Of a DNA stretch of 64,000 nucleotides, positions 20,157 through 42,787 are shown piece after piece. The DNA is from Lysinibacillus louembei (GTDB lineage: Bacteria; Bacillota; Bacilli; Bacillales_A; Planococcaceae): positions 2,515,501 through 2,579,500 of the forward strand of contig NZ_CP137624.1 in assembly GCF_033880585.1 (NCBI RefSeq). The letters run 5' to 3'. The position numbers and the translations under genes were made by a program. Under the pieces are notes generated by a model. It did no database searches. It saw only the letters and a list, made by a program, of their open reading frames with translations, and was not told the DNA's origin. How positions within the stretch are numbered: the stretch's first letter is position 1; each line of letters starts with the position of its first letter.

Positions 20157-20196
20157 AAATATTGTCTTTAATACCAATTGCGTTATTAAAGCAACT

Positions 20197-20270
20197 GTCT
20201 CCATAGCTCAGCTGGATAGAGCACGGGCCTTCTAAGCTCGCGGTCGTAGGTTCGAATCCTACTGGGGACG
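20197..20270 (+). tRNA. tRNA-Arg (anticodon TCT)
   Basis: A full cloverleaf can be drawn by hand: acceptor GTCTCCA/TGGGGAC, D stem GCTC/GAGC, anticodon stem CGGGC/GCTCG with loop CTTCTAA, T stem GTAGG/CCTAC with loop TTCGAAT, and discriminator G. The anticodon TCT reads AGA, an arginine codon. CCA is not encoded. Its 3' part (20242-20270) is the left end of the integrated element's att repeat, so the gene stays intact after insertion. Its probable original terminator is now at 40.87 kb. Confidence 0.97.
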
Positions 20271-20283
20271 TAAATAGGTCGAA
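20242..20283. repeat. attL of the integrative element
   Basis: Left copy of the exact 42-base direct repeat. It includes the T arm and 3' acceptor of the tRNA-Arg gene, a classic tyrosine-integrase target. Confidence 0.93.
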
Positions 20284-20309: not shown

Positions 20310-20402
20310 AAAAGCATCTTACTCAATATAGATTAAACTACAACAATCGGTCATCTTGCTGATTAGTATAGTCAATCTATAGAGGGTGAGGTGCTTTTTT
20401 CT
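20310..20402 (+). promoter_or_regulatory. terminator-like hairpin overlapping the integrase ribosome binding site
   Basis: Bases 20310-20334 can pair with 20374-20398 through an almost continuous stem rich in G-U pairs, followed by TTTTTT. The 3' arm contains the integrase ribosome binding site (GGGTGAGG, 20384-20391). The structure could stop read-through from the tRNA promoter and hide the integrase start signal. A smaller perfect hairpin (GCCTATA/TATAGGC) lies just before it. The function is inferred from structure only. Confidence 0.55.
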
Positions 20403-21389
20403 ATGACGAAAAAGAAAGGGATATTTGATATTAATTTAGCGAATCAGTTTATTTCATCTACAAATTCAGTTAAAAAGAAGGAAGAGAAAAGAGAAGGCGT
20501 TACAATGGAACAAGCTTTAAGCACTATACTAAGACAAATGGAAGTAGAAGGCTGTAGAGAACGAACATTGTATGATTATCGAACAATTACAATCAATTTT
20601 ATGCACAATACAGATGCAGTTTATCTTGATGATATTACAGAAACGGTTATTCGAGATTGGTTAGGCACAATGAAGGTTAAAAACTCTACTCGCTTAACAC
20701 GTTTAAAGTGCTTTAAAGCCTTTTTATCACGTTGCTATGATAATGGGTGGATTAAGTTTAAATATTGGAAAAACATTAAAATACGAGTTGATACAGCTAT
20801 TAAAGAAGGGGCTACAGATGATGAAGTAAATCTTTTATTATCTGTACTAGATTACTCTAAATTTTTAGATTTAAGAAATGCATGTGCTATTTTGTTAATG
20901 TATCGAGCAGGCTTGCGAATTGGAACTATCTCACTTATGCGTGAACGTCATATTGACTTTGAAAATATGCAGTTAAAGCTAGATGGTGACGTAATGAAGA
21001 ATCACAAAGGCTTAATACTTCCAATTGATAAGCAACTTGCTTATTTACTAACTGTATTAATTAATCAAAATGAAGCAATAAGACGTGAATACAGCCAAGA
21101 CAACGATTTACTGTTTATAACAATGAAAGGTACTTCTACTATTAATTCAATTACTTCTAATTCTATTAAACAGCAATTGTATAAATATACTAAGCAGTTT
21201 GGTATTAAAAATATTAATCCACATGCATTAAGGCGTGGCTTTGCATCTAATTTGTATAAGAAAAGCAATGACATATTATTAGTATCAAAGGCTTTAGGTC
21301 ATGCAGATTTATCTGTAACAACTAAGTATTTACATGCAGACTTGCAGAATGTTGCAGATGACGTTAGAAAGTATTTTGAGTTTAATTAG
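20403..21389 (+). CDS. tyrosine recombinase / phage-type integrase
   Basis: 329 residues. An N-terminal SAM-like domain (about 35-130: LSTILRQMEVEGCRERTLYDYR) is followed by the catalytic domain with Arg in MYRAGLRIGT (about 172), HALRRGF (His and Arg, about 274-277), His of LGHADLS and the nucleophile Tyr in TTKYLH (about 309). It catalyses site-specific insertion and excision at the tRNA-Arg att site. ATG 20403 is preferred over GTG 20391, which lies within the GGGTGAGG ribosome binding site. Position next to the tRNA is typical. Confidence 0.92.
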   Translation: MTKKKGIFDINLANQFISSTNSVKKKEEKREGVTMEQALSTILRQMEVEGCRERTLYDYRTITINFMHNTDAVYLDDITETVIRDWLGTMKVKNSTRLTRLKCFKAFLSRCYDNGWIKFKYWKNIKIRVDTAIKEGATDDEVNLLLSVLDYSKFLDLRNACAILLMYRAGLRIGTISLMRERHIDFENMQLKLDGDVMKNHKGLILPIDKQLAYLLTVLINQNEAIRREYSQDNDLLFITMKGTSTINSITSNSIKQQLYKYTKQFGIKNINPHALRRGFASNLYKKSNDILLVSKALGHADLSVTTKYLHADLQNVADDVRKYFEFN

Positions 21390-28189: not shown

Positions 28190-28751
28190 CGCTAAAAGTA
28201 TTGATTTACCTGCTTTATTATGATGCTCAAACAGGTCATAGATAGCAGGTAAAACATTGATTTTATTGAGCTGTGGTGAAGCTATCACGTATATGTTAGG
28301 TGGCTTTATTGGAGTCGTAGGAGAGCTGTGACAAGGCGTTACAGTTCGGGGTGAAACATTGGTCAGAGAAGGTTGTAGTCTTGTCGTAGAGCCATTTCAA
28401 GCGTCATATAACAAGGCTTAGGTAGGGGGCGTAGTTAGCGATAATTTGATGAAGGTGAATGAAGAATTGGAGCTACCTATTACACTCACATCGAATTAAA
28501 TGATAATATTCAAAGGAAAGCACTTCTTTTACATAGATTTGTAGTTAACTCCACAAAAATCCTTAATTAGTTTATAATGGGGATAATTAAGAAATATCGA
28601 GAAGTGGTATACCTAAAAAATTATGAACGAATTGCGCTGTAACTCGTTTAGAATTACAAAACGCTGCATCTAATGAGAGTCCTTATTTTGAGAACTATCA
28701 TTTCATTATGCAACTATATGGTATATACTAGTCCTCAGAAGGTGTTTGAAT
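28190..28751. other. gene-poor stretch with a decayed coding remnant and boundary motif
   Basis: TTTACCTGCT and AGCAGGTAAA (about 28206-28255) form a hairpin after the resolvase. From about 28260 to 28500 one frame reads as protein-like sequence broken by two stops (for example GVTVRGETLVREGCSLVVEP, later VNEELELPITLTSN), which looks like a decayed phage-type gene. Its end, 28475-28497, contains a motif that recurs at 30889, 36287 and 39938 (ACCTATTACACTCACAT here). Confidence 0.4.
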
Positions 28752-28838
28752 CAAGTTCGTAAAAATGTAATACTACCTAGTGGAGTAAATCGCATATGTT
28801 ACATGAAAGAGAGCAGAGACTTGCTCTCTTTTTCTATT
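28752..28838. repeat. module-boundary repeat, copy A, with terminator
   Basis: This segment is repeated at 33925-34025: about 35 of 41 bases match in the first part, and nearly all of the last 46 bases match. Copy B has a 17-base insertion. Both carry the same terminator hairpin (AGAGAGCA/TGCTCTCT then TTTTT; here 28808-28833). Confidence 0.75.
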
Positions 28839-28865
28839 GTTCAAAAATGTAAAATTTAATTTTAG

Positions 28866-28950: not shown

Positions 28951-30537
28951 CTATTCACATAATAATTTCATTTGCTTGATTAAATCTTCTGAACGTAACT
29001 CAAGGAACTTGGAATAATCGTCAACTAAAGCTGCATCAAGTGCCTTTTGAGAAATAAAATTGCTTTCTAAAATATCAGCTGCAGAGTCTCCTAAAGAATC
29101 TAACACTGTATTAAAGTAAATCGATGGTTTTTTGTCCGAAATAGTTCTGTTGTTAATCAAATTTAAAAGGCAAATGTTTGAGTGATAATTTGCTTCTTTA
29201 TCGGAAATATTTGTGTTTTTTAAATATGCTTTAGGGAAAATGTGATGATATTCATGACGGTTGATTACAGCTAAAACATTGGCGATATTAATTACTGAAC
29301 CATCAAGTAGACTTTGAGGCTTTTTTGAAGCTAATAATAAACCTAAGGACTTACTATTGGCTTTATTTAATTTAAAATCATCAAAGACAAATTTTTTAAA
29401 GTCAATAGGCGTTGAGAAATTAAGAGTAGTTGTATTTCCATTTGCGAAACTTCTAATTTCTTCCAAATCCTTGGTTAATTGAGCGGTGTTAAATGAAGCG
29501 AAATATCTGCTAAAAGCAGTACGCCAAAACCATTTTTTTAATTCATCTCTTTGCTGTACAGTTGGGCTAGGACAAATGTTGAAGAACTCTACTAATAGGG
29601 TTAGTTGTAGCCCATAAGGTAAATAAGAAGATGAAGTTATTGGTAATTCAGAAGTTAAAAAATCAACAGCATGTTTATAAGCTTCAACACATTTAAGTGC
29701 GGCATTTTTCAACTCTGAAGAAGTGCAATCTCTTAATTTATCCATATCATCTTTATTAATACCATAGCCCATTACAGATGAAATATTTTTTAATATATCA
29801 GCTTCTGAAACATCTTCAAAATTTTTAGGTTTTAAAACTTCTCTTATTTTCTGTATAGTGTCACTTAAATCGAAATCACCACTCCAAGTAGCAGCTCGCA
29901 TTAAATCAACAATAGTTAATCTACGACCTGTACTATTAATTCGTTCAAAAATAGGAGCTACTTCATGAACTGTCATATCACCAATAGTTACAGCAGCGAC
30001 TTTATAATCTTTGATAGCCTGTAATAAACGTTCTGCATTTTTAATATATTTATCTTTATTTGGTAAAGCTTCTATTTTACGACATTCATTAATAAAGTCC
30101 ATTGTTCCTATAACTTTATTTAAAGGGAGATATTCAGGTTTTGAATTACTTTCGGGATGAATAAATACTTCTTTTTCTAAATCAAATGCTATATTCCACA
30201 TACTTTTTAGGTCAGAGCCATTCCAAAAAAGTGCACCACATAATGTAGAAAGCCTTTGTTGCCCATCTAACAAATAATTTGTAGGATATTCTAAACTTCT
30301 ATCATCAATTTTAAAATCACCAATGTTTCTTTCGCTAGCTAATTTTTCTTTAGTGAACCAAAGTAAAATACTTCCTATAGGATAGCCTTTATAAATACTA
30401 TCTAGCAGACTTAATATGTCTTTTTTCTTCCAGACAAACGGACGTTGAAACTTTGGTAATTTAATATCACCTGTCTTAACTTTTAAGACAAGTTCTTCAA
30501 TTCGTAATACTTCTGGTTTTGGGTCAAAAGCCTTCAC
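28951..30537 (-). CDS. DUF262/HNH-type (GmrSD-like) restriction endonuclease
   Basis: 528 residues. The N-terminal DUF262 (ParB/Srx-like NTPase) domain shows IKLPKFQRPFVWKKKDIL (residues 25-42), SIYKGYPIGSILLW, and LLDGQQRLSTL. The C-terminus has a His-Me/HNH-like site, EYHHIFPKAYL (about 427) and NNRTISDKKPS. This matches the single-chain GmrSD layout, type IV enzymes that attack phage DNA with modified bases, though many relatives are uncharacterised. It is shorter than typical fused GmrSD proteins. It is transcribed divergently from the HNH gene at 31.2 kb, inside a module bounded by repeats A and B. Confidence 0.8.
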   Translation of the reverse strand: MKAFDPKPEVLRIEELVLKVKTGDIKLPKFQRPFVWKKKDILSLLDSIYKGYPIGSILLWFTKEKLASERNIGDFKIDDRSLEYPTNYLLDGQQRLSTLCGALFWNGSDLKSMWNIAFDLEKEVFIHPESNSKPEYLPLNKVIGTMDFINECRKIEALPNKDKYIKNAERLLQAIKDYKVAAVTIGDMTVHEVAPIFERINSTGRRLTIVDLMRAATWSGDFDLSDTIQKIREVLKPKNFEDVSEADILKNISSVMGYGINKDDMDKLRDCTSSELKNAALKCVEAYKHAVDFLTSELPITSSSYLPYGLQLTLLVEFFNICPSPTVQQRDELKKWFWRTAFSRYFASFNTAQLTKDLEEIRSFANGNTTTLNFSTPIDFKKFVFDDFKLNKANSKSLGLLLASKKPQSLLDGSVINIANVLAVINRHEYHHIFPKAYLKNTNISDKEANYHSNICLLNLINNRTISDKKPSIYFNTVLDSLGDSAADILESNFISQKALDAALVDDYSKFLELRSEDLIKQMKLLCE

Positions 30538-31230: not shown

Positions 31231-32247
31231 ATGTCTGAGAAACATCACCAATTACAAAAAGAATTACATAAGGTTTTATTAAATGCAGCGAAAAGTGCTA
31301 ATAGTATAGGTTACAATCCTCATATTTTTAACCAAATGTTAGCAAATGAAGGTGGGTACTCTGTTGCGAAAAAACTGATTCATAGAACTTCTACAAGGTT
31401 TGAGAAATTATGGGAACTTAATCGATTGGATTTATCCACTGAAGCTGTGATATTACAAGAGAAATTTAGACCTTTGTTTACAAAAGAAGAGTTAGAGATT
31501 GCTAAAGCTAGATTAAGTGAATTTGGCTATGAAGTAGAAGATATATGCTATGATTTACCGTCTTTGAAACCAAGTGGTCGAGAAAGAGAGTTTAATTATT
31601 ATCCTGAAGATTTAAAGGGAAGAGTTATTTATGAACATTTATTAAATAACCAAACTCATAGATGGCTTGATGTTAATATACTTGGTAGACCAGAAACTAA
31701 TCATGGTAGAGATGCAGCGAACATCCTTTACTATCTAGGTATGAAATCAGATTATAGAGGCGTATTCCAAGGAAAAGTATTCCACGAAGTAATAGAAATT
31801 CTACAAAGAAAAGGGACAGAGTATGATGAAATTGTACGGTTATTAAATGTATATTCTGAATCAGAAAAGCTATTTGAGATTGTAAAATCAGATATTGAAG
31901 CTCAACAAGTGGAGGAAGGAAATCGAATAGAGGGAACTAAGAAAGCGTACTTAGTAAATAAATATGAGCGTGACCCAAAGAATCGTAAGAAAGCAATTGA
32001 GATTCAGGGATTGAATTGCTATGCTTGTGGATTTAATTTTGAAGATGTATATGGAGAACGAGGAACAGATTTTATAGAAATTCATCATATTAAACCATTA
32101 AGTAAATTAGAAGAAGCTGTAAAAATAAATCCTAAAACGGATTTAGTTCCTTTATGTGCAAATTGTCATCGAATGGTGCATAGAAGGAAGGATAATGTAT
32201 TGAATATAGAAGAGTTAAAGAAATTAATAATTAGGGAGAAAGAGTAA
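31231..32247 (+). CDS. HNH endonuclease (McrA-type C-terminus)
   Basis: 338 residues. The C-terminal HNH domain is complete: CYACGF (about 263), IEIHHIKPLS (about 283-291), PLCANCHRMVH (about 308-317), with four zinc cysteines. The N-terminal 100 residues (HRTSTRFEKLWELNRLDL) and the middle (RWLDVNILGRPETNHGRDAANIL) belong to a domain type I have seen on other HNH proteins but cannot name. It starts after AAAGGGG. It probably cuts DNA, perhaps modified DNA. It could act with the divergent DUF262 gene, or independently. Confidence 0.8.
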   Translation: MSEKHHQLQKELHKVLLNAAKSANSIGYNPHIFNQMLANEGGYSVAKKLIHRTSTRFEKLWELNRLDLSTEAVILQEKFRPLFTKEELEIAKARLSEFGYEVEDICYDLPSLKPSGREREFNYYPEDLKGRVIYEHLLNNQTHRWLDVNILGRPETNHGRDAANILYYLGMKSDYRGVFQGKVFHEVIEILQRKGTEYDEIVRLLNVYSESEKLFEIVKSDIEAQQVEEGNRIEGTKKAYLVNKYERDPKNRKKAIEIQGLNCYACGFNFEDVYGERGTDFIEIHHIKPLSKLEEAVKINPKTDLVPLCANCHRMVHRRKDNVLNIEELKKLIIREKE

Positions 32248-32333: not shown

Positions 32334-32753
32334 GTGTCAAATCAACATCCAATAAAAATTTTTAAAAACTATACTTATATTTTTTCAAATCAACATAGAA
32401 TTCGACAAAATAATAATAAATCGATATGGCAAGTTAATCAAAATGAAGAATTCGATTCATTTACATTAATGTGTAATGAGAATTGGATAATAGATAACGT
32501 GAAGGGTTGGTCAGTACATAGAGTTAACAGTCGTAATGAATTTTTGGGAATTAATACAAGAAATGAAGAAGTAAAAATAGCGAAATTCCTAGATAGTGCC
32601 AATAATTTTCAGTGGCACGGTTATCCAATCGATTATAGATTTTCTGTAAATGATAAACCTAACGCTAAAATACTTAAACAATGGGTTAAGGACGAGATTA
32701 TAACTAAAACACAAATGAGACGAATTTTGCAAGGGCAAGGATGTGAAATTTAA
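32334..32753 (+). CDS. hypothetical protein, first gene of an unrecognised pair
   Basis: 139 residues starting with GTG after a good ribosome binding site (AGGTGAGGG). No known domain recognised. The N-terminal half is polar; the C-terminal half carries a conserved-looking block, WHGYPIDYR, followed by ILKQWVKDEIITKTQMRRIL and a Cys, reminiscent of a small helical binding domain. Its stop codon abuts the ATG of the next gene without a gap, so the two are made together. Position within a nuclease-rich island suggests a defence role, but nothing in the sequence proves it. Confidence 0.6.
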   Translation: MSNQHPIKIFKNYTYIFSNQHRIRQNNNKSIWQVNQNEEFDSFTLMCNENWIIDNVKGWSVHRVNSRNEFLGINTRNEEVKIAKFLDSANNFQWHGYPIDYRFSVNDKPNAKILKQWVKDEIITKTQMRRILQGQGCEI

Positions 32754-33896
32754 ATGAAAAGTATATCTATTAGAATTGAAGGAGAATACTGGGATTATTT
32801 AATTAAGTACAATGCTTTATTTTTATGGACTTTTGAAGGAACGTTGGAAATTTACGATTGGGAATACTTGTTGAATGATTTGAGCTATAAAATGAAAGAT
32901 AATAATATTTATAAATTTTTTAGAGGAAATATAAATTCTATACTTTTAAATGTTCATAATAAAGATATGAAAGAGAGTTCAAAAATAAATCTCAGAAAAA
33001 GTGAAATTCAAAAATATAAAGTAAGGGAATTTTGGATTTCTACTAATGATTTAATTATTTCCTTAGATTCATATAATGATGATTTACTTTTAAATACTGA
33101 TGAGGGATTACTTTTATGCAATTTGAAAGAGATTTTGGTAGATTCAAATAATATTCATACAAATACTTTAACCAAAGAAAAATATTATGAAAAGATATTT
33201 GATATGCCTTTTTTTGATATTAGTATTGGAAATTATGGGAATGTTGCATTAGCTGGAGGTGAAGAGGGGGTATTTGAATTTGTAATGCCTCAAAAAAAAT
33301 ATAATGAGACAAATGAAGTTAAACATATAATAAAAAAACAATCGAATAAAGTTGATTGGCTAAAAAATAGTATTTATAATACTTCTCCAATAGAAGAAAG
33401 CTTTATTCTAAATAAGCCCATTGAAAGAGGCGTATGGAATTATAATGACTATAAAATTTATGAAGATTCACAGATTTTTCGGAAAAATGATGAAAATGTA
33501 TATCATTCCAATATAAGTTGGGCTAATAATAACAAAATATATAGAGTTGTTGATAGTAGACAATTACAAGAAGTAACCGTACAAAACTTTGGGAATGGAG
33601 AATTGGCTTTTAGGTCTAGATATATTAACTTCATGGAATGGAAAGGAGATATTTTAGCTGGTGCAGGTACATCATTTGGTACAGTGGTAGAGTGTGAAAA
33701 TGCTTTAGTAGTAATATTTAAAAATAAAGACTTTATTAATATACCTGGGGAAATTGTACGGTGGAAATATTATAAATCAAATGAAAGATATAGTAACTTG
33801 TTAGGAGTAATTTTTGATAAATCCATTGTCCTTCAAGCATTTGAACCTAATAATTATTTTAAAATTAGAAGTATTAATAAATCGTATTTTGAATAG
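32754..33896 (+). CDS. hypothetical protein, possibly beta-propeller-like, second gene of the pair
   Basis: 380 residues, no named domain. It is rich in aromatic and Asn residues, with repeated short strand patterns such as ISIGNYGNVALAGGEEGVFEF and FMEWKGDILAGAGTSFGTVV, which look like propeller blades. No signal peptide, membrane helix or nuclease motif is visible. The gene begins on the base after the upstream stop codon, so translation is coupled. A boundary repeat with terminator follows. It may be a sensor or scaffold whose partner is the 139-residue protein. Confidence 0.55.
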   Translation: MKSISIRIEGEYWDYLIKYNALFLWTFEGTLEIYDWEYLLNDLSYKMKDNNIYKFFRGNINSILLNVHNKDMKESSKINLRKSEIQKYKVREFWISTNDLIISLDSYNDDLLLNTDEGLLLCNLKEILVDSNNIHTNTLTKEKYYEKIFDMPFFDISIGNYGNVALAGGEEGVFEFVMPQKKYNETNEVKHIIKKQSNKVDWLKNSIYNTSPIEESFILNKPIERGVWNYNDYKIYEDSQIFRKNDENVYHSNISWANNNKIYRVVDSRQLQEVTVQNFGNGELAFRSRYINFMEWKGDILAGAGTSFGTVVECENALVVIFKNKDFINIPGEIVRWKYYKSNERYSNLLGVIFDKSIVLQAFEPNNYFKIRSINKSYFE

Positions 33897-33924
33897 CCGT
33901 TTGATGGTTATTAGGCTTCCGAAC

Positions 33925-34025
33925 CAAGTTCGTAAATTTATAATACTTCCAAGTGGAGAAAATCGTTTATACTAATCGCATAATGTTACATGAAAGAGAG
34001 CAGAAACTTGCTCTCTTTTTCTATT
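33925..34025. repeat. module-boundary repeat, copy B, with terminator
   Basis: Second copy of 28752-28838. The terminator AGAGAGCA/TGCTCTCT (33995-34016) with T-run to 34020 ends the two-gene operon. Together the copies enclose about 5.1 kb holding the DUF262, HNH and pair genes. Confidence 0.75.
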
Positions 34026-34076
34026 AATGTAAAATCATTCTTTTACTCATGAAAGAATAAGAATAGTGGTGATGTA

Positions 34077-35298
34077 ATGAAATTTGAAAATAGTAATATT
34101 GAAGAGGAGTACATAGATGTTAAAGGATATTGTTCTGATAAATTTATAGATTGTTATTATAATAATTTATCTATCTTTCATTCAGAAAAAGAGACCGACA
34201 TTGTTTTAAGTAACTCCACATTATTAACAGTTTATCTCCCCTTAACAAGGTATTCAATAGAATGTAAGTTTGAAGATTTAGTGTTCAATATTCAAAAAGT
34301 AAAAACGGCGAATTTTATAAATGATTATACACTTTTGACTAAAGATGAAGCTTTAGTAAGAGTAACGACAACAGGAGATTTTTATGAAACAATAACAACC
34401 GTAAATGCTTATAGTGCAGATATAATTCTTGATGAGATAGAGTATATAGTATGTCTTACAAAAGGGTTCAATAGTTTTAATCTCAAAATAGTAGAAGAAG
34501 ATGCATATAATAAATTTGTAGCACCTTATTATAAAGATGACATGTATGTATGTATGTATTTACAGTCCTTATATACAAAAAGAACATATAGAGGAAATTT
34601 ATTTAGCTTACTTTTTTGAAATCAAAACTATGTTTAATATAGAACTAAAATATCATCCTCTAGTAGATTTGAACTTTTTTGCTGAGGAAGAAGATATCAA
34701 AGAGCCTGAACGTGAGATAAGATTAAGACCATTATTATATGGAAAAGGTATGAAAGAAGTAATTGATATCTATGCAAGGGGATTCAATACTACATTTGCA
34801 GAACATAGAATTTTAAGTTTTTGTAGAGTAATAGAATATGTATCGCAAACTGTAATTCGAAAAGACCTAATAGAAAAGGCTACAAATAAATTATCGAATA
34901 GAAGAGTTTTTTTACCTGATTCAGATTTTATATTAGAACTTGGTAAAATATTCGAACAGCACAATGAGAGTAAAAAAGACTATCAAGCTTTTAAAATAAC
35001 AGTAGAAAATTGTTGTGATATTTATGAGCTTGTCAAGCTTGCACCTAGTAATTTGAAGAAGACGCAAAAAATAACTTTAAATAGTAATTCAAAACAAATT
35101 GAAGAAGCTTTTTTAGAAATAGTAGAGAGTATAACCGCAACTAGAAATAAGTTATCACATGCTAAAACCAATTATAGAACTAAGGGTGGAGAATGTCCTG
35201 AGGAAAATATGGGAGATTTTTCTGTATTTTTAGATATAGTTGCACAGCAAGTAATTCGGTGGTTTGGATGGCAAAAAGAAGAAAATAGAATAATATGA
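34077..35298 (+). CDS. ApeA-like HEPN protein, split by a frame change at a tetranucleotide repeat
   Basis: Two overlapping frames (34077-34619, 180 residues, and the frame ending 35298, about 253 residues) read as one protein of about 405 residues if a -4, -1 or +2 change occurs in the overlap. The second half ends in a HEPN domain with RNKLSHAK (R at 35143, H at 35158, the R-x4-H motif). The long beta-rich N-terminus plus C-terminal HEPN resembles ApeA anti-phage proteins. The overlap contains four and a half ATGT units, and loss of one unit would join the frames. It may be OFF by phase variation, a plain pseudogene, or an assembly error. Confidence 0.6.
34542..34559. repeat. (ATGT)4.5 simple sequence repeat inside the HEPN gene
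   Basis: Four full ATGT units and AT, exactly where the two reading frames overlap. Such tracts change length by slipped-strand replication. By frame arithmetic, losing one unit would restore an uninterrupted gene. Confidence 0.85.
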
Positions 35299-35431
35299 TG
35301 TGATGAATTTATTCTAAAAATAGAAGTCAAATCACTTATATATAAATAAACTATTTGATGGATGGGGAGTATATCAATATGATATGCTCTTTTTCTTTTA
35401 AAAATATAAGTAATGTGGAAATAGAAAAGTT

Positions 35432-35973
35432 GTAACAATACTAATATTAAATGGTGTCAAATTAGATATAGAGCAAGGTCATAAAACTATGAACATGAAG
35501 TAGGTGGCAAGAGAAAGTGGTATTGGAGAAACAAAGTTAAAGCAGGTGTTTTCTTCATTCAGCTATGAATACGATAGCACTAAATACAAGGGACAGTATG
35601 TTTTGATAGATAAAAAGGATTATAGGAATTGCTCCTTATGGTTAACCATGCAATATGATGTCAATGGTAATATTGATATTATCAATACTGAAATAGAGGA
35701 TATAATAAAGTCAGAGAATAATAATATTGCTTGTGGATTTACATATGAGGGAATCAAAGTATTGAAGCATCTAACACAACAACAAATGGTTAGCCAAAGT
35801 GTTATATATGGCTCTCTAGGTATTTTAGGTGATATTCAGAGCATTTCAATAAAGAAGAGTCTATCAATGATTAGCTGATAGAGCAGCTAGACGCTTTTTG
35901 TGAGCGACATAGGATAAAGAAATCAGATTTTTTAGCAATTGCAATTAGTGATAGATACATTGTAGAAATTTAG
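35432..35973 (+). pseudogene. broken DNA-binding protein gene (HTH plus ribbon-helix-helix)
   Basis: One frame runs through a TAG at 35501, continues with ESGIGETKLKQVF (helix-turn-helix-like) to a stop at 35876-35878, and a second frame then reads LIEQLDAFCERHRIKKSDFL, ending at TAG 35973. That last part fits the C-terminal helices of a ribbon-helix-helix domain. A stop and a frameshift therefore appear to have inactivated a regulator or plasmid-type DNA-binding protein. The 124-codon GTG frame at 35504 could still be expressed but lacks a good ribosome binding site. Confidence 0.45.
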
Positions 35974-36003: not shown

Positions 36004-36484
36004 TATTCAGACGAAAATCTTGATTTATAGGGCTTTATGGCACATTAAAATTTTATGGATTGACAAGTAAAACAGCGATTTTATTTCAGTCGTGATACAG
36101 GAGTGACTGGTGGATTGTCAGAGGGGGGTGGAGCTTTGTTTGTAGTCTGTTCCTAGAGGTCAAGCTGACTTATTTGTCAGCGAAGGTCAAAAGTGTGTTG
36201 GATGGACGTTTGGAGAATTAGACGGCAAGGGTCAAGCAGGGGGGATTTTCCGATATTAAGATTGAGTATTTCCCTATTAATGTGTGACCTGTTACATCTA
36301 CACAAATTGAAGTAGCTCACGATACGATATAATTGTATTTTAAAATAATTACATTGTAAATAGAAATTTCATTAACTACAATTAATATAAGAATTAGATG
36401 TGGTGGAATTGATTTTTACTCTTTTAATATGCCAAAATCTCGATAGTTTTAATGGAAAATAAATCAACTGGAGTGAATAAAATA
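36004..36484. other. gene-free stretch with boundary motif
   Basis: About 480 bases with no supported gene. Contains the recurring motif at 36287-36310 (ACCTGTTACATCTACACAAA) and AT-rich sequence likely to hold the helicase promoter. Confidence 0.4.
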
Positions 36485-38221
36485 GTGGCTAAGTATAATT
36501 GTATAACATTGAAAGTAAAAAATGGGGAACTAGAAGACTTTGATAAACTTCGCCAACCTGAACAAAATATCCTGAAAAACGGCAATGTTGTTTATATATA
36601 CAGAGGAACGAAATCTAAGAAAATTTATATTGGACAAACGAAACATTTTATTGAAAGAAATAAGCAACATTATAATAGTAAAGAGGGCAAATTTAATGCA
36701 GCAGCCTTCGACCAAGTATGCATTCTTATCTCATCTTATTTCAATGGTTCAGCTTTAGATGATGTAGAAAGTCAGCTTATTACCTACTTTATTGCAGATA
36801 ATCCAAAGTCTAAAGTTCAGTATGATAATGGTGAAGTTATCAATCGGAACAATGGTAATAGTGTAAATAACTACCGAGAAAGAGAAAAAGTTTCTTTAGA
36901 AGTTATTTTACCTTTCTGGGAGAAAGAATTATATCCTAATGAATGGGTAAACACTCCTTCTTTGGCGGAACTACGCACTAATGCACTAGTAAAATATAGC
37001 CCAATTAAACAATTAACGGAACAGCAAATAGATTTACTAAACGAAATAAATTTAAATCAAGATAAAGATTTTGTGATTAATGGTGATGCAGGTACAGGAA
37101 AAACTGTATTATTAACTCATTTAGTAGCTATGCTCTTAAAAGAGCAACCTAATAAGAGGATAGCAGTTGTTTTACAACGCAATTGGATTGAAACAGCAAA
37201 AGATATCTTTAGAGTGTACGGAATGAAGAGTAGTAACCTTACAATTGCAACTTCAATACAACTAATTAATGCGGATGACAATTATGATGTTGTTATTGTT
37301 GATGAATCCCATAAGCTTTCTAGAAAGTTCTCTAAACAAATGGTGAGTTTTAACAAAGTGTATAAAGGCAGATTTGTTAATGATAGCAATCATTTGGAGT
37401 GTTTGAAAAAAATGGGTAGCCAAATTGTTTTAATGTATGACATATTACAAGCTATTCGACCTGCTAACATGACACGTATTCAATTCAATGAAGCTACTAA
37501 AGATTTTGAAAAGAGATACTTAAAGACACAGTTTAGAATTCAAGCACCAGCAGGAAAAAGCTATACATCAGATGATTTTGTAAATGGTATAAAATATCTT
37601 TTATATAAGGATACGGGCTTATTAGAACAAACGAATTTCAATCCTAAATTTGATAGATATGTATTCCAAGATAAAGATATGGATGCTTATTTTGGATATT
37701 TGGAAACAGAGCCGTTAAAGAATTTAATTGACTGGATAGAGGAAGACAGAAATTTTAATCCTGAACATATTAATCGTATATTAGGTGGGTTAGTTGAACC
37801 TTGGAAACAGGCTGACGGTAAAGATTCTTCAATCACCCATTGGCATGAAGGTGATATAAAACGAAGATGGAATTCCACTCAGGAAAATTGGGTTTATTCA
37901 GATGAGGAAGATGCTGAAGAGCAAATTGGCTCTGTTTTTGCAGTGCAAGGTATTGATTTAAATAAAGTGGGCGTTTTAGTAGGAAATGACCTTCAAGTTG
38001 ACACTGAGGGGCGATTATATGGGAATCCAGAGAACTTTCATAATGTAAATGGAAAATTCTCTAAAGAAGATGAAAGCCCAGAAAATGCACAAGAGTTTAC
38101 TTTATTTGTATTGAATATTTATTATATTTTGATGACTAGAGGCATTGATGGTATACGACTAGGTTTTTGGAAAAATGATGCTTTTAAAGAATATATGAAG
38201 AAAACATTAGAAATTATATAA
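36485..38221 (+). CDS. GIY-YIG nuclease fused to a DUF2075 (Schlafen group 3-like) helicase
   Basis: 578 residues. The N-terminal GIY-YIG domain shows NVVYIYRGT and KIYIGQT with a following RNKQHY (about residues 33-63). The central and C-terminal P-loop helicase has Walker A GDAGTGKT (about 200), Walker B VVIVDESHK (about 268), GSQIVLMYD, and AVQGIDLNKVGVLVGNDL plus YILMTRGIDGIRLG at the end, typical of DUF2075. GTG 36485 is chosen for its GGAGTGA site; ATG 36452 is in frame but without one. A nuclease joined to a helicase on a defence island suggests nucleic-acid targeting. A terminator-like hairpin separates it from the MazG gene. Confidence 0.8.
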   Translation: MAKYNCITLKVKNGELEDFDKLRQPEQNILKNGNVVYIYRGTKSKKIYIGQTKHFIERNKQHYNSKEGKFNAAAFDQVCILISSYFNGSALDDVESQLITYFIADNPKSKVQYDNGEVINRNNGNSVNNYREREKVSLEVILPFWEKELYPNEWVNTPSLAELRTNALVKYSPIKQLTEQQIDLLNEINLNQDKDFVINGDAGTGKTVLLTHLVAMLLKEQPNKRIAVVLQRNWIETAKDIFRVYGMKSSNLTIATSIQLINADDNYDVVIVDESHKLSRKFSKQMVSFNKVYKGRFVNDSNHLECLKKMGSQIVLMYDILQAIRPANMTRIQFNEATKDFEKRYLKTQFRIQAPAGKSYTSDDFVNGIKYLLYKDTGLLEQTNFNPKFDRYVFQDKDMDAYFGYLETEPLKNLIDWIEEDRNFNPEHINRILGGLVEPWKQADGKDSSITHWHEGDIKRRWNSTQENWVYSDEEDAEEQIGSVFAVQGIDLNKVGVLVGNDLQVDTEGRLYGNPENFHNVNGKFSKEDESPENAQEFTLFVLNIYYILMTRGIDGIRLGFWKNDAFKEYMKKTLEII

Positions 38222-38264
38222 CAATCTCTAAATACCTATTCAAAGGTGAAACAACTTAACAAAA

Positions 38265-38404
38265 TATATGCTGATTGTGTGTTTCAATAGAAACCAGCAC
38301 TTTTTTATTTCGAGAATAATTTAGATGATGGATAAAAATGGTGTGTAGTATTATTATGAGAGATACTTGCTACGAGTAGTGTGATAGCAGGTATTTTTCT
38401 CTCA
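38265..38404 (+). terminator. two terminator-like hairpins between helicase and MazG genes
   Basis: The first (about 38268-38308) pairs TGCTG with CAGCA around GTTTC/GAAAC, then TTTTTT. The second (38354-38404) pairs ATGAGAGA and TACTTGCTA with TAGCAGGTA and TCTCTCAT, with a T-run inside the 3' arm. They suggest the MazG-HNH pair has its own promoter or that expression is attenuated. Confidence 0.5.
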
Positions 38405-38496
38405 TATGTGATAATTATATTTTTATTAAAAGAGAAGTTTTCGAGTGCAATAAGGGAAGTAAGGTTTTAATTTATATGTTAAAGGAGTTAAGGATG

Positions 38497-38823
38497 ATGC
38501 CTGTATATAATAAATTAGTAAGAGATAAAATTTTAGAGATTATCGAAGCAGATGGGTTAGCTTATAATGCTAGAATATTGGAGTCTAGTGAGCTTCTAAA
38601 GGAAGTAAAGGCGAAGATGATTGAAGAAGCTAAAGAGTTTTATGGGGCAGATAACGTCCAAGAAAGTGTTGAAGAATTAGCAGATATTTTAGAACTAGTA
38701 CATACAGCTATCAGTGCATTAGGTGTAAGTTATGAAGAACTAGAAGCCATTCGTGAGCAGAAAAAGGCTAAACGTGGCGGATTTGAAAAGGCAATTTATT
38801 TAATTGATGTAGAGGATAAGTAA
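38497..38823 (+). CDS. MazG-type nucleoside triphosphate pyrophosphohydrolase
   Basis: 108-residue all-alpha NTP pyrophosphatase. The opening YNKLVRDKILEII is the signature of the phosphoribosyl-ATP pyrophosphohydrolase-like branch, and EEAKEF plus EELADILELVHTA provide the Mg-binding Glu/Asp residues. It would hydrolyse (d)NTPs or modified or alarmone nucleotides to monophosphate and pyrophosphate. ATG 38497 (or 38494) follows AAAGGAG. It is 23 bases ahead of the HNH gene, so they form an operon. Confidence 0.85.
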   Translation: MPVYNKLVRDKILEIIEADGLAYNARILESSELLKEVKAKMIEEAKEFYGADNVQESVEELADILELVHTAISALGVSYEELEAIREQKKAKRGGFEKAIYLIDVEDK

Positions 38824-38846
38824 CCTATTTTCAATGGAGTGTTTAG

Positions 38847-39899
38847 ATGAATAATTACTTAGAAAATGATGATACCTTGGAATCGTATTTCCGCTCGATT
38901 TACTTATTTGGTAAAAATGTTGCAACTTATAAATTTGCGTTCGCTAAAACATTACTTGAATTAGGTGAGAGTAACAAAAGCTTTGTGAGCTTAGAAGAAT
39001 TATCCCCTATATTTGCAAAGTATATGTTAGAGCATATTGGGAATGGGAAACGACAAATAACAAGTCAGTCATCTAAGTTTATTAGTGCTCTGGATTTATT
39101 TCATCAAAACCAAATTATGTGGGAACAGTTACTTGAGATTACTGAAAAAGTAGGGTTTAACAATGTGATAGATGCTTTTCATAACATTCCTAATGGTGAG
39201 CTTGATAAAAAATTTTATGAGAAGTCCATACAAGGAAAGACTTTAGGAATTACCTTGACTGATGGTATATTTTTTTTGAATGAAAGCTCCCAAAAAGAAA
39301 ATATTTTTAGTGAAATTGAAGGTAGATGGAACTTAGTTGAAAACGCATGGACTGAACGAAATCCAAAACTAGAAGTTCAGTTTGATACAGACCTTGAGCA
39401 GTTTTTCTTTATAAAGCCTATGACACCAAAGCAGTTCATGTTGTCACATGAAAGAATCAATCTAACTTCTGCTAGAAAACCATTAAACGGGTATCAAAAG
39501 GGAAAATGCTTCTATTGCTATAGACCGATTTCAATTGAAAGTAACCAATTGAATACTTGTGACATAGACCATTTTGTGCCGCTCTCAACACAGTTCAACA
39601 GTACACATGATTTAGACTTAAATGGTGTTTGGAATTTAGTTCTAAGCTGTCAGGATTGCAATAGAGGGGAAGCTAATGGGAAGTTTGCTCGACTACCTGA
39701 AAACCATCTTTTGCAACGATTGTATAAGCGTAATGAGTATCTAATTGAAAGTAATCATCCACTAAAAGAAATGATAATTATAAGAACAGGAAAAACCCCA
39801 CACCAAAGAGCGAACTTTTTAAATACTATGTATGGATTTGCAGAGTCTCTAAGTAGAGCTAAGTGGAAGCCTAAACTTGAGTATGATATTGGATTTTAA
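38847..39899 (+). CDS. HNH endonuclease
   Basis: 350 residues. The HNH site is in the C-terminal half: CFYCYRPI (about 221), CDIDHFVPLS (about 239), CQDCNRGEANGKFARLP (about 268), with four metal cysteines. The N-terminal 200 residues are helical and unrecognised, probably for target or partner recognition. Ribosome binding site GGAGTG. It follows MazG closely and lies after the GIY-YIG helicase, so two nucleases, a helicase and a nucleotide pyrophosphatase sit together. Confidence 0.82.
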   Translation: MNNYLENDDTLESYFRSIYLFGKNVATYKFAFAKTLLELGESNKSFVSLEELSPIFAKYMLEHIGNGKRQITSQSSKFISALDLFHQNQIMWEQLLEITEKVGFNNVIDAFHNIPNGELDKKFYEKSIQGKTLGITLTDGIFFLNESSQKENIFSEIEGRWNLVENAWTERNPKLEVQFDTDLEQFFFIKPMTPKQFMLSHERINLTSARKPLNGYQKGKCFYCYRPISIESNQLNTCDIDHFVPLSTQFNSTHDLDLNGVWNLVLSCQDCNRGEANGKFARLPENHLLQRLYKRNEYLIESNHPLKEMIIIRTGKTPHQRANFLNTMYGFAESLSRAKWKPKLEYDIGF

Positions 39900-40800: not shown

Positions 40801-40842
40801 GGTCGTAGGTTCGAATCCTACTGGGGACGTAAATAGGTCGAA
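40801..40842. repeat. attR of the integrative element
   Basis: Right copy of the exact 42-base repeat, with the 3' end of the tRNA-Arg sequence as a non-functional remnant. It marks the return to chromosomal DNA. Confidence 0.93.
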
Positions 40843-41766: not shown

Positions 41767-41815
41767 GCAGATTAAATGATGTAATCCAATATGTTATTAA
41801 TTGGAGGTAGGTAAT

Positions 41816-42787
41816 TTGAATAAAGCGATTGAACAATTGATTTTAAAAAATACAGGGCTAGAGACTGTAGTTGAGATTAATAATGTAGAAACAAATAATG
41901 ATGGCTTTAATAATGACATAACGATGTTTCATCTTAGCTTTTTTAATAAAGCAGAGGAATTTTCTAAGCGAGTTGTGCTGAAAAAATTTAGTCATCGTGT
42001 GTCGTTTAATAAAGAACTACATATTTTAAAGAGTGAATCTATGAATAACTACATAAATATTCCAACTCTTTATTTTGAAGATAAAGAAAATAGGCTTTTG
42101 TTAATGGAACATGTCGAGGGAGTTACTTTGGACAAATACATTATTTCGAGTGCTAATGAGATGAGGGAGACGTTTGAAAAATTTGGTTCTACACTAGCCC
42201 ATATTCATTCAATTGATGTGCAGGGGTTAAATAATGAGTATTTTAAAAATGACCAGTTAAATAACTGTATTGAAAGCTTAAAGAATAGAGTTACGGGCTT
42301 TGAAGACCCAATTTATAGAAAGATACTGAAAAATATTGAGCAATCGTTCAAAGGTGTAAAATTTAGCGAGGTGCTAAATCATGGGGATTATCATTTTTGG
42401 AACACGATAATGACGAATGATAACAAATTGTATATTTTAGATTGGGAAAAAGCCTTTCTAGGAGACCATCGTTTTGATATAGCTAATACGCTTGTATTAG
42501 GATACTCTTGGTTTGGAATGGATTTCAAAGAACCTCTATTAGCTGCTTATCAAAATGTCTCTAACAAGGAAATTGAATATTTAGAATGCTTTGAGGCCTT
42601 ATTATGCTTTGACTCTTTTACTAAGACAGTTCCATTAATATACGGAGCAGACGACTCACATATCAGAGATAGAACGTTTGAATGGTTAAAGCGACGTTAC
42701 GAATTATTTGTAAAACATACGGGAGAAAGAATTGAAAAAGCGGAACAGTATTTATTTTCTAAGGGTCTTGCAGTCAAAATATCGTAG
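41816..42787 (+). CDS. aminoglycoside phosphotransferase (APH) family protein
   Basis: 323 residues with the kinase-like APH fold. The catalytic loop LNHGDYHFWNTI and the metal-binding ILDWEKAFLGDHRFDIA are both clear, and LLLMEHVEG marks the hinge. The family phosphorylates small molecules such as antibiotics, choline or sugars; the substrate here is unknown. TTG 41816 is chosen as start because GGAGG lies eight bases upstream; a TTG at 41801 overlaps that site. A strong shared terminator follows. Confidence 0.78.
   Translation: MNKAIEQLILKNTGLETVVEINNVETNNDGFNNDITMFHLSFFNKAEEFSKRVVLKKFSHRVSFNKELHILKSESMNNYINIPTLYFEDKENRLLLMEHVEGVTLDKYIISSANEMRETFEKFGSTLAHIHSIDVQGLNNEYFKNDQLNNCIESLKNRVTGFEDPIYRKILKNIEQSFKGVKFSEVLNHGDYHFWNTIMTNDNKLYILDWEKAFLGDHRFDIANTLVLGYSWFGMDFKEPLLAAYQNVSNKEIEYLECFEALLCFDSFTKTVPLIYGADDSHIRDRTFEWLKRRYELFVKHTGERIEKAEQYLFSKGLAVKIS

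Follow-up and report, generated by a model that had tools for sequence, protein, structure and literature searches.

A MazG-type nucleotide pyrophosphohydrolase gene and an HNH nuclease gene, adjacent on the forward strand at 38476-39899 of a 64,000-nucleotide stretch of Lysinibacillus louembei DNA (hereafter the window; contig NZ_CP137624.1, positions 2,515,501 to 2,579,500, from the single-contig 3.96-Mb genome G000), constitute a real two-gene unit, with an adjacency that recurs far beyond chance. The unit is widespread and apparently unnamed. An earlier note on the same DNA had joined both genes to the nuclease-helicase fusion gene upstream, as a candidate three-gene defence group that could cut invading DNA while depleting nucleotides. 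This interpretation was partly supported: the three open frames in a row were confirmed and Pfam matches were obtained for each of the proposed GIY-YIG/SLFN-g3, MazG-type and HNH identities, but a two-gene module is the better-supported replacement for the three-gene reading.

Pairing of an HNH nuclease gene with three small enzymes

Relatives of the HNH gene were gathered at 132 loci, comprising 80 from named genomes (the best 80 of 309 matches), 10 from plasmids (of 11 matches), 37 from the source organism's own family Planococcaceae (of 38 with E≤1e-25 outside the window, from 261 genomes searched), four from the phylum (398 genomes searched, five with a match besides the window's genome, a G631 fragment being omitted) and the window itself. 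Two genomes were fetched twice and are hence counted double, a second, broken locus of G204 (L173) is uncounted, and the weaker matches within Planococcaceae, mostly to the HNH part, were left unfetched. A partner gene within 1.5 kb at E<1e-20 was found at 99 of the 132 loci, namely MazG at 36, a HIT hydrolase at 25 and a TehB-like S-adenosylmethionine (SAM) methyltransferase at 38, i.e. three unrelated small enzymes. The partner lay within 150 nt at 93 loci, upstream or downstream and on the same or the opposite strand, and in most paired loci the two genes overlap or stand a few nucleotides apart. By set, the paired loci were 68/80 in named genomes, 6/10 on plasmids, 21/37 in the family and 3/4 in the phylum, with the window also paired. 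None of 39 random 10-kb regions held MazG, HIT or the methyltransferase at E<1e-20, with one weak methyltransferase match at E 1.2e-8; these controls were 19 regions from family genomes (one of 20 drawn was dropped as it overlapped an HNH locus) and 20 from the same contigs as the HNH loci. The suspected link between MazG and HNH was thus borne out.

The HNH gene (38847..39899, forward strand) starts 23 nt past the MazG stop, as had been noted earlier, and encodes a protein of 350 aa with a Pfam HNH_4 match (E 7.5e-6), HNH_4 and HNH being the only Pfam matches at E<1. Residues ~1-200 are followed by the HNH part at ~221-276 and by a conserved C-terminal stretch (RNE..S.HPL). The family profile matches Cas9/IscB-type HNH domains in the PDB (best 2.5e-8), and the family is present in several phyla. 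The DH..N..N motif was recovered by pattern in 118 of 121 proteins and by eye in the other three, and there are two subfamilies, mutually only 20-24% identical, each of which pairs with MazG. Identification as a phage homing nuclease was rejected, since the window protein had no match at E<1e-5 among 50,697 phage records, and the phage matches of two distant family members were confined to the region of the HNH part (E<1e-3). A distant DNA search with an Enterobacter stretch carrying the HNH-methyltransferase pair gave no match in 20,395 E. coli records.

The MazG frame (ORF 38476..38823, forward strand) has a Pfam PRA-PH match above its cut-off (E 7.4e-5) and a weak MazG-like match below its own (E 0.042). 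The ribosome-binding sequence AAAGGAG at 38481-38487 precedes ATG codons at 38494 and 38497 and suggests one of these as the start, so that translation probably begins at 38494 or 38497. A relaxed form of EExxE...ExxD, the metal-binding motif of MazG-type pyrophosphohydrolases, is kept by 32 of the 34 MazG proteins linked to HNH genes, the window's included, and the strict form by 24 of 34. Among the other partners, the HxHxH motif was found in 25/25 HIT proteins and the SAM motif in 37/38 methyltransferases, with the remaining one recognized by eye. The partner methyltransferases are of ~195 aa, and the three that were scanned match TehB / Methyltransf_25.

The partners have, on the evidence of the HNH tree, been exchanged repeatedly. 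In this tree (121 of the 132 proteins, nine short HNH frames and two duplicate loci being omitted), partner labels were clustered far beyond shuffles, and at least seven partner changes were counted among labelled rows, or 20 if having no partner is treated as a state. The tree is a quick search supported by SH-like approximate likelihood-ratio test (SH-aLRT) values only, and long branches, including L036 and L168, are unsurely placed. The window's clade of 13 proteins (SH-aLRT 100) contains MazG pairs in Bacillota and methyltransferase pairs at three gammaproteobacterial loci, of Wohlfahrtiimonas, Psychrobacter and Acinetobacter, the HNH proteins of which are 48-53% identical to the window's, so at least one of the changes falls within that clade. 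HIT pairs are concentrated in a single clade (22 of 25, nearly all labelled Bacteroidota). Overall, MazG partners were seen in Bacillota and on one Rhodococcus plasmid, HIT mainly in Bacteroidota, and the TehB-like methyltransferase mainly in Pseudomonadota and Clostridia-type Bacillota. Separately, the cyanobacterial loci L068, L080, L107, L110, L070 and L095 hold other small conserved neighbours in place of MazG, HIT or the methyltransferase, such as a Nif11-domain small downstream gene in L068 and a divergent phage L5 gp82-like gene in L110; these are possible further partners.

The neighbourhood of the HNH loci is rich in matches to defence families, in agreement with the defence setting proposed in the earlier note. 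At 20 loci from 19 genera, the 119 ORFs of 140 aa or more that lie up to 5 kb from the HNH gene drew matches from 89 PADLOC families at E≤1e-30. In 20 random regions taken from those contigs, 138 ORFs gave four families, including mad3 and RtcR; the figures count PADLOC families, not genes. The neighbour set excludes eight partner methyltransferases (119 of 127 ORFs kept), and one 2030-aa ORF (L196:3625-9714) was omitted from the control set for its size (138 of 139). The 19 control regions from family genomes were kept out of this comparison because many HNH loci in the family share one chromosomal site. Among the 25 of the 89 families listed were type IV, type I and type II restriction-modification, retron I-B, Dpd, AbiU, Hhe, Mokosh and PDC-S37. 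What speaks against a picture of defence islands alone is that in genus g8 the group B MazG-HNH pairs (L145, L146, L147, L163 and L169) occupy a single chromosomal site among ordinary genes. Two of these loci, L163 and L169, combine a broken HNH frame, accompanied in L163 by an inserted ORF, with an open MazG frame.

The upstream helicase gene

The third gene of the proposed group (ORF 36452..38221, forward strand) encodes a fusion of a GIY-YIG nuclease (Pfam E 1.3e-5) and a Schlafen group 3 helicase (SLFN-g3_helicase, PF09848, E 1.6e-38), the latter scoring 133.4 bits over residues 207-569 against a curated cut-off of 24. Its start may be the ATG at 36452 or the GTG at 36485, both being possible as the GTG is in frame and lies 11 nt after GGAG. 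The trio is located towards the right end of an integrated element of 20.6 kb (window 20242-40842) at a tRNA-Arg gene, and the helicase gene is separate cargo on this mobile element, outside the MazG-HNH pair, because it is seldom linked to the HNH gene, a hairpin intervenes and its close relatives occur without the pair.

Linkage was scored with a profile built from 15 helicase relatives, at a distance of up to 3 kb from the HNH gene, with at least 8 kb of flank available at 103 of the 132 loci when counting no more than 5 kb per side. An SLFN-g3 helicase of this protein family was within 3 kb at three of the 132 loci, which are the window, L124 (1.8 kb) and L027 (2.3 kb); a further copy stands 7.8 kb away in L153. 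A weak profile match in L030 is a gene annotated as a GIY-YIG nuclease, and in L028 an annotated DNA/RNA helicase gene, outside the linkage score, lies 4.2 kb from the HNH gene and runs off the stretch. The window's helicase has its nearest relatives on a plasmid of L. fusiformis (85% identical), in G145 (74%) and in G179 (37%), and neither an HNH-family match nor an adjacent MazG gene was seen around these three; the plasmid copy sits upstream of nucleotidyltransferase, E2 and JAB-type genes. Helicase matches were present in 102 of the 261 family genomes, with the other full-length matches mostly ~30% identical.

Terminator-like hairpins between the helicase and MazG genes had been described before, and one of the two withstood comparison with shuffled sequence. 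The hairpin with T-run at 38355..38405 (forward strand, -19.5 kcal/mol) folds far better than shuffles (z -4.55, 0/200 shuffles as good), whereas the candidate at 38255-38315 is shuffle-like (z -0.34, 70/200 as good); a consensus scan listed neither of them.

A single three-gene defence system that includes the GIY-YIG/SLFN-g3 helicase would account for the adjacency in the window, for the SLFN-g3 helicases near HNH genes in L124, L027 and L153 and for the annotated helicase in L028. It is nonetheless largely refuted by the linkage count, and with the hairpin between the genes and the 85% plasmid relative lacking the pair it is now scarcely credible. Co-occurrence analysis, which the earlier note had suggested as a check, therefore found the trio to be rarely together and the MazG-HNH pair not to be, and the doubt expressed in that note, that the genes might belong to two systems, proved right. 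In L027 (plasmid CP110805.1), MazG is 90% and HNH 79-91% identical to the window's; as deposited, this HNH gene has a broken frame, and a different SLFN-g3 helicase fragment lies upstream.

Proposed role of the pair and alternative explanations

The preferred explanation for the pair, put forward tentatively, is that MazG-HNH (38476-39899) is a restriction-like module in which the HNH protein cuts modified invader DNA and the partner clears the modified nucleotide. The HNH protein would act as the effector, cutting incoming DNA with unusual or modified bases in the manner of type IV enzymes, and the partner would guard the host by clearing a modified nucleotide rather than by DNA methylation. 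In the MazG case, modified dCTP-like triphosphates would be removed before their incorporation into the chromosome could make the host itself a target. Generalized to a form of restriction with metabolic self-protection, in which a swappable enzyme (MazG, HIT or SAM methyltransferase, or Nudix for SauUSI-like enzymes) would keep the pool free of the marker, the idea is more doubtful.

The proposal that the HNH protein is modification-dependent and that the partner excludes the marker base is drawn from the occurrence of MazG beside DUF3427 helicases and from the substrates of SauUSI, DCTPP1 and MazG. A helicase with a phospholipase D (PLD) nuclease domain was found at E≤1e-40 in 161 of the 261 family genomes, and MazG lies within 1.5 kb of such a PLD-helicase in at least 23 of them (rows picked by eye, distances computed), adjoining the helicase ORF or standing within 1 kb of it in 8/8 fetched loci. 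In 14 of the 23 genomes the helicase is long (~970 aa), and 5/5 of those scanned have the PLDc_2-ResIII-Helicase_C-DUF3427 layout of SauUSI; in G089 (L157) the gene order is DUF3427 helicase, MazG, HNH. SauUSI cleaves DNA containing 5-methylcytosine (m5C) and 5-hydroxymethylcytosine (hm5C) (PMC3874153), DCTPP1 is a MazG-like enzyme (PMC4491611) for which specific cleaning of 5-methyl-dCTP is reported (PMC10742078), and mycobacterial MazG clears 5-OH-dCTP (PMC3855555). As an observation in its own right, six family genomes (L229, L231, L233, L234, L235 and L236) carry an apparent Nudix - DUF3427 helicase - MazG cluster, which in L229 and L231 is followed by a second, ~810-aa PLD-helicase and in L236 has a divergent MazG. 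Pfam puts the Nudix gene of L229 and L231 across the long helicase from MazG, and that of L236 between this helicase and MazG; in L233 and L234 it was recognized by eye next to the long helicase, and in L235 it is a fragment with no Pfam match.

Several observations weigh against this explanation. The support for a modification-dependent role of the HNH protein consists in guilt by association with DUF3427 helicases, and the N-terminal half of the protein, where modified DNA might be bound, has no Pfam match and no assigned fold. The other nine MazG-helicase genomes carry a ~810-aa PLD-helicase, which in the three scanned has PLDc_2 and helicase domains but no DUF3427, so these nine are uninformative on modified DNA. 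2-oxo-dATP is also reported as a MazG-family substrate (PMC10742078), and MazG thus need not point to cytosine. Any action of HIT or the methyltransferase on modified deoxynucleoside triphosphates is an assumption of the model. Of 118 HNH proteins, 37 have lost the Zn-type CxxC, and the named-genome loci are not an even sample. None of the three partners was found at 33 of the 132 loci, where 29 HNH genes are full length and four broken, and which include nine cyanobacterial and three Exiguobacterium loci. Within the family, 12 full-length HNH genes have no adjacent MazG, and eight of these genomes lack any MazG match, which shows MazG to be dispensable. Finally, all 14 fetched close relatives of the window's MazG (72-90% identical, with a stop in the aligned sequence of two, G030 and G037) had no HNH-family match in the surrounding 6.3-6.5 kb. 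A MazG dedicated to the HNH gene is therefore unsupported, and on the evidence of these 14 the window's MazG is a generic enzyme that was recruited to the pair.

The main rival, unlikely in itself, accounts equally well for the swapping of partners, and holds that the HNH protein is a ligand-gated nuclease, whose N-terminal part would bind a nucleotide-type signal raised on infection, and that the partner would serve as an off-switch by destroying or altering the signal in healthy cells. On this view the interchange of three unrelated small-molecule enzymes would be explained, as would the lack of a Pfam match for the N-terminal half of the HNH protein. However, no regular third, signal-making gene was seen among the neighbour clusters, the MazG relatives are generic stand-alone enzymes, and the adjacency of MazG to PLD-helicases is left unexplained. 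The close spacing or overlap of two small genes in most pairs, together with their mobile setting, would also suit a toxin-antitoxin-like arrangement in which a self-toxic HNH protein is neutralized by its partner, perhaps by chemical modification. This appears improbable, as the partners are enzymes of unrelated families whose catalytic motifs are conserved and as the partnerless loci, with their 29 full-length HNH genes, would be intolerable for a toxin, although other antidotes are conceivable.

MazG-type enzymes hydrolyse nucleoside triphosphates (NTPs), and the HNH loci have a defence setting, so a two-arm abortive infection could be envisaged in which HNH cuts DNA and MazG drains NTPs or alarmones. 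This is very improbable, and the nucleotide depletion proposed in the earlier note is poorly supported, since in relatives the place of MazG is taken by HIT or a methyltransferase, neither of which is known to drain NTPs, and since the close copies of MazG are ordinary chromosomal genes standing apart from HNH. The occurrence of a SAM methyltransferase beside HNH at 38 loci could likewise suggest classical restriction-modification, in which HNH cuts, the methyltransferase protects host DNA, and MazG and HIT are chance substitutes. With the patterns tested, a DNA-methyltransferase motif was found in 0/38 of these small TehB-like partners; the window pair has no methyltransferase, and MazG and HIT cannot methylate DNA. 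Classical restriction-modification is thus largely refuted and retains hardly any probability.

If clearing of a modified nucleotide by the partner is indeed what spares the host, distinction of self from non-self in restriction may rest on cleaning of the nucleotide pool rather than on DNA methylation, and there would be a reason for the presence of nucleotide-cleaning enzymes beside nucleases in defence islands. Whatever the mechanism, an HNH family of defence islands whose partner alternates among three unrelated enzyme folds offers a strong natural experiment, in which the chemistry common to MazG, HIT and the methyltransferase is a clue to how the nuclease is controlled.

The integrated element and relation to known systems

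The element that carries the locus begins at attL (20242..20283, forward strand), the 3' end of the tRNA-Arg(tct) gene at 20196-20271, and ends at attR (40801..40842, forward strand), the two being a 42-bp perfect direct repeat; a tyrosine integrase gene (20391..21389, forward strand, Pfam Phage_integrase E 3.4e-28) lies just inside the left end. Genome G068, of the same genus, has a site without the element, where the left flank (81% identity) leads into one 42-bp copy and then directly into the first 213 bases from attR (89%), to the right of which it differs from the window until 42825. In G066, of the same species, the left flank (98%) is followed by a different 3.7-kb stretch and then by the right flank from 41265 (91%). 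Also carried on the element are a GmrSD-like DUF262-type gene (28951-30537, reverse strand, PADLOC PDC-M55C E 3.3e-96), a second HNH gene (31231-32247, forward strand) that in part matches a type IV restriction model (mREase_IV 1.1e-7), and a run of five ORFs at 32334-35878 (beginning at 32334, 32754, 34077, 34537 and 35504), none of which exceeds a curated Pfam cut-off. An imperfect duplication of ~100 bp, with copies 5.2 kb apart at 28748-28848 and 33921-34035, includes the hairpin-like AGAGAGCAG...CTTGCTCTCTTTTTC. Just beyond the element is a phosphotransferase gene of the APH Pfam family (41801-42787, forward strand, E 4.4e-18).

Comparison of the three genes with PADLOC-DB 2.0.0 gave no full-length match to a component of a named system, the window MazG matching 0 families and the HNH protein being assessed on 25 of its 34 matches; the earlier note had likewise named no system with this set. 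No name for the MazG-HNH pair appeared in PADLOC, NCBIfam or the accessible parts of the literature consulted, and MazG-HNH, HIT-HNH and methyltransferase-HNH pairs were absent from the literature matches listed, a body of text with subscription journals mostly outside its scope. DefensePredictor (PMC13092281) lists MazG among its predicted defence domains, as one that is unvalidated.

Of the known systems, the SauUSI type of type IV restriction enzyme (PLDc-helicase-DUF3427) resembles the pair in its company, as it adjoins MazG in the 14 family genomes and stands beside MazG-HNH in G089, but SauUSI has a PLD nuclease, an ATPase motor and DUF3427, and by Pfam the HNH protein shows neither motor nor DUF3427. 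Septu PtuB and the retron-linked HNH proteins (TIGR02646, NF041761) belong to the same HNH superfamily (best PADLOC PtuB match 3.7e-7), but the matches span only ~60-100 residues of the HNH part, the partners of the window's family are MazG, HIT and the methyltransferase, and a cluster of PtuA-type ATPases did not recur among the HNH-locus neighbours, so the pair does not classify as Septu (PtuAB). EcoKMcrA-like enzymes (PADLOC mREase_IV) share a C-terminal HNH behind a non-nuclease N-terminal part, as described for EcoKMcrA (PMC3874153), and would share the proposed kind of activity, i.e. modification-dependent cleavage; however, no mREase_IV match was among the 25 of 34 for the window protein, and the N-terminal parts have no demonstrated relationship. 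The PHROG 338 HNH endonuclease profile aligns with the window protein over residues 13-292 (E 4.3e-16), in contrast to the lack of any match to a phage record at the threshold given above. Lastly, the MazG partner resembles pool-cleaning pyrophosphohydrolases of the MazG/DCTPP1 type in its PRA-PH match and catalytic motif, but differs from them in that MazG is here regularly coupled to a nuclease.

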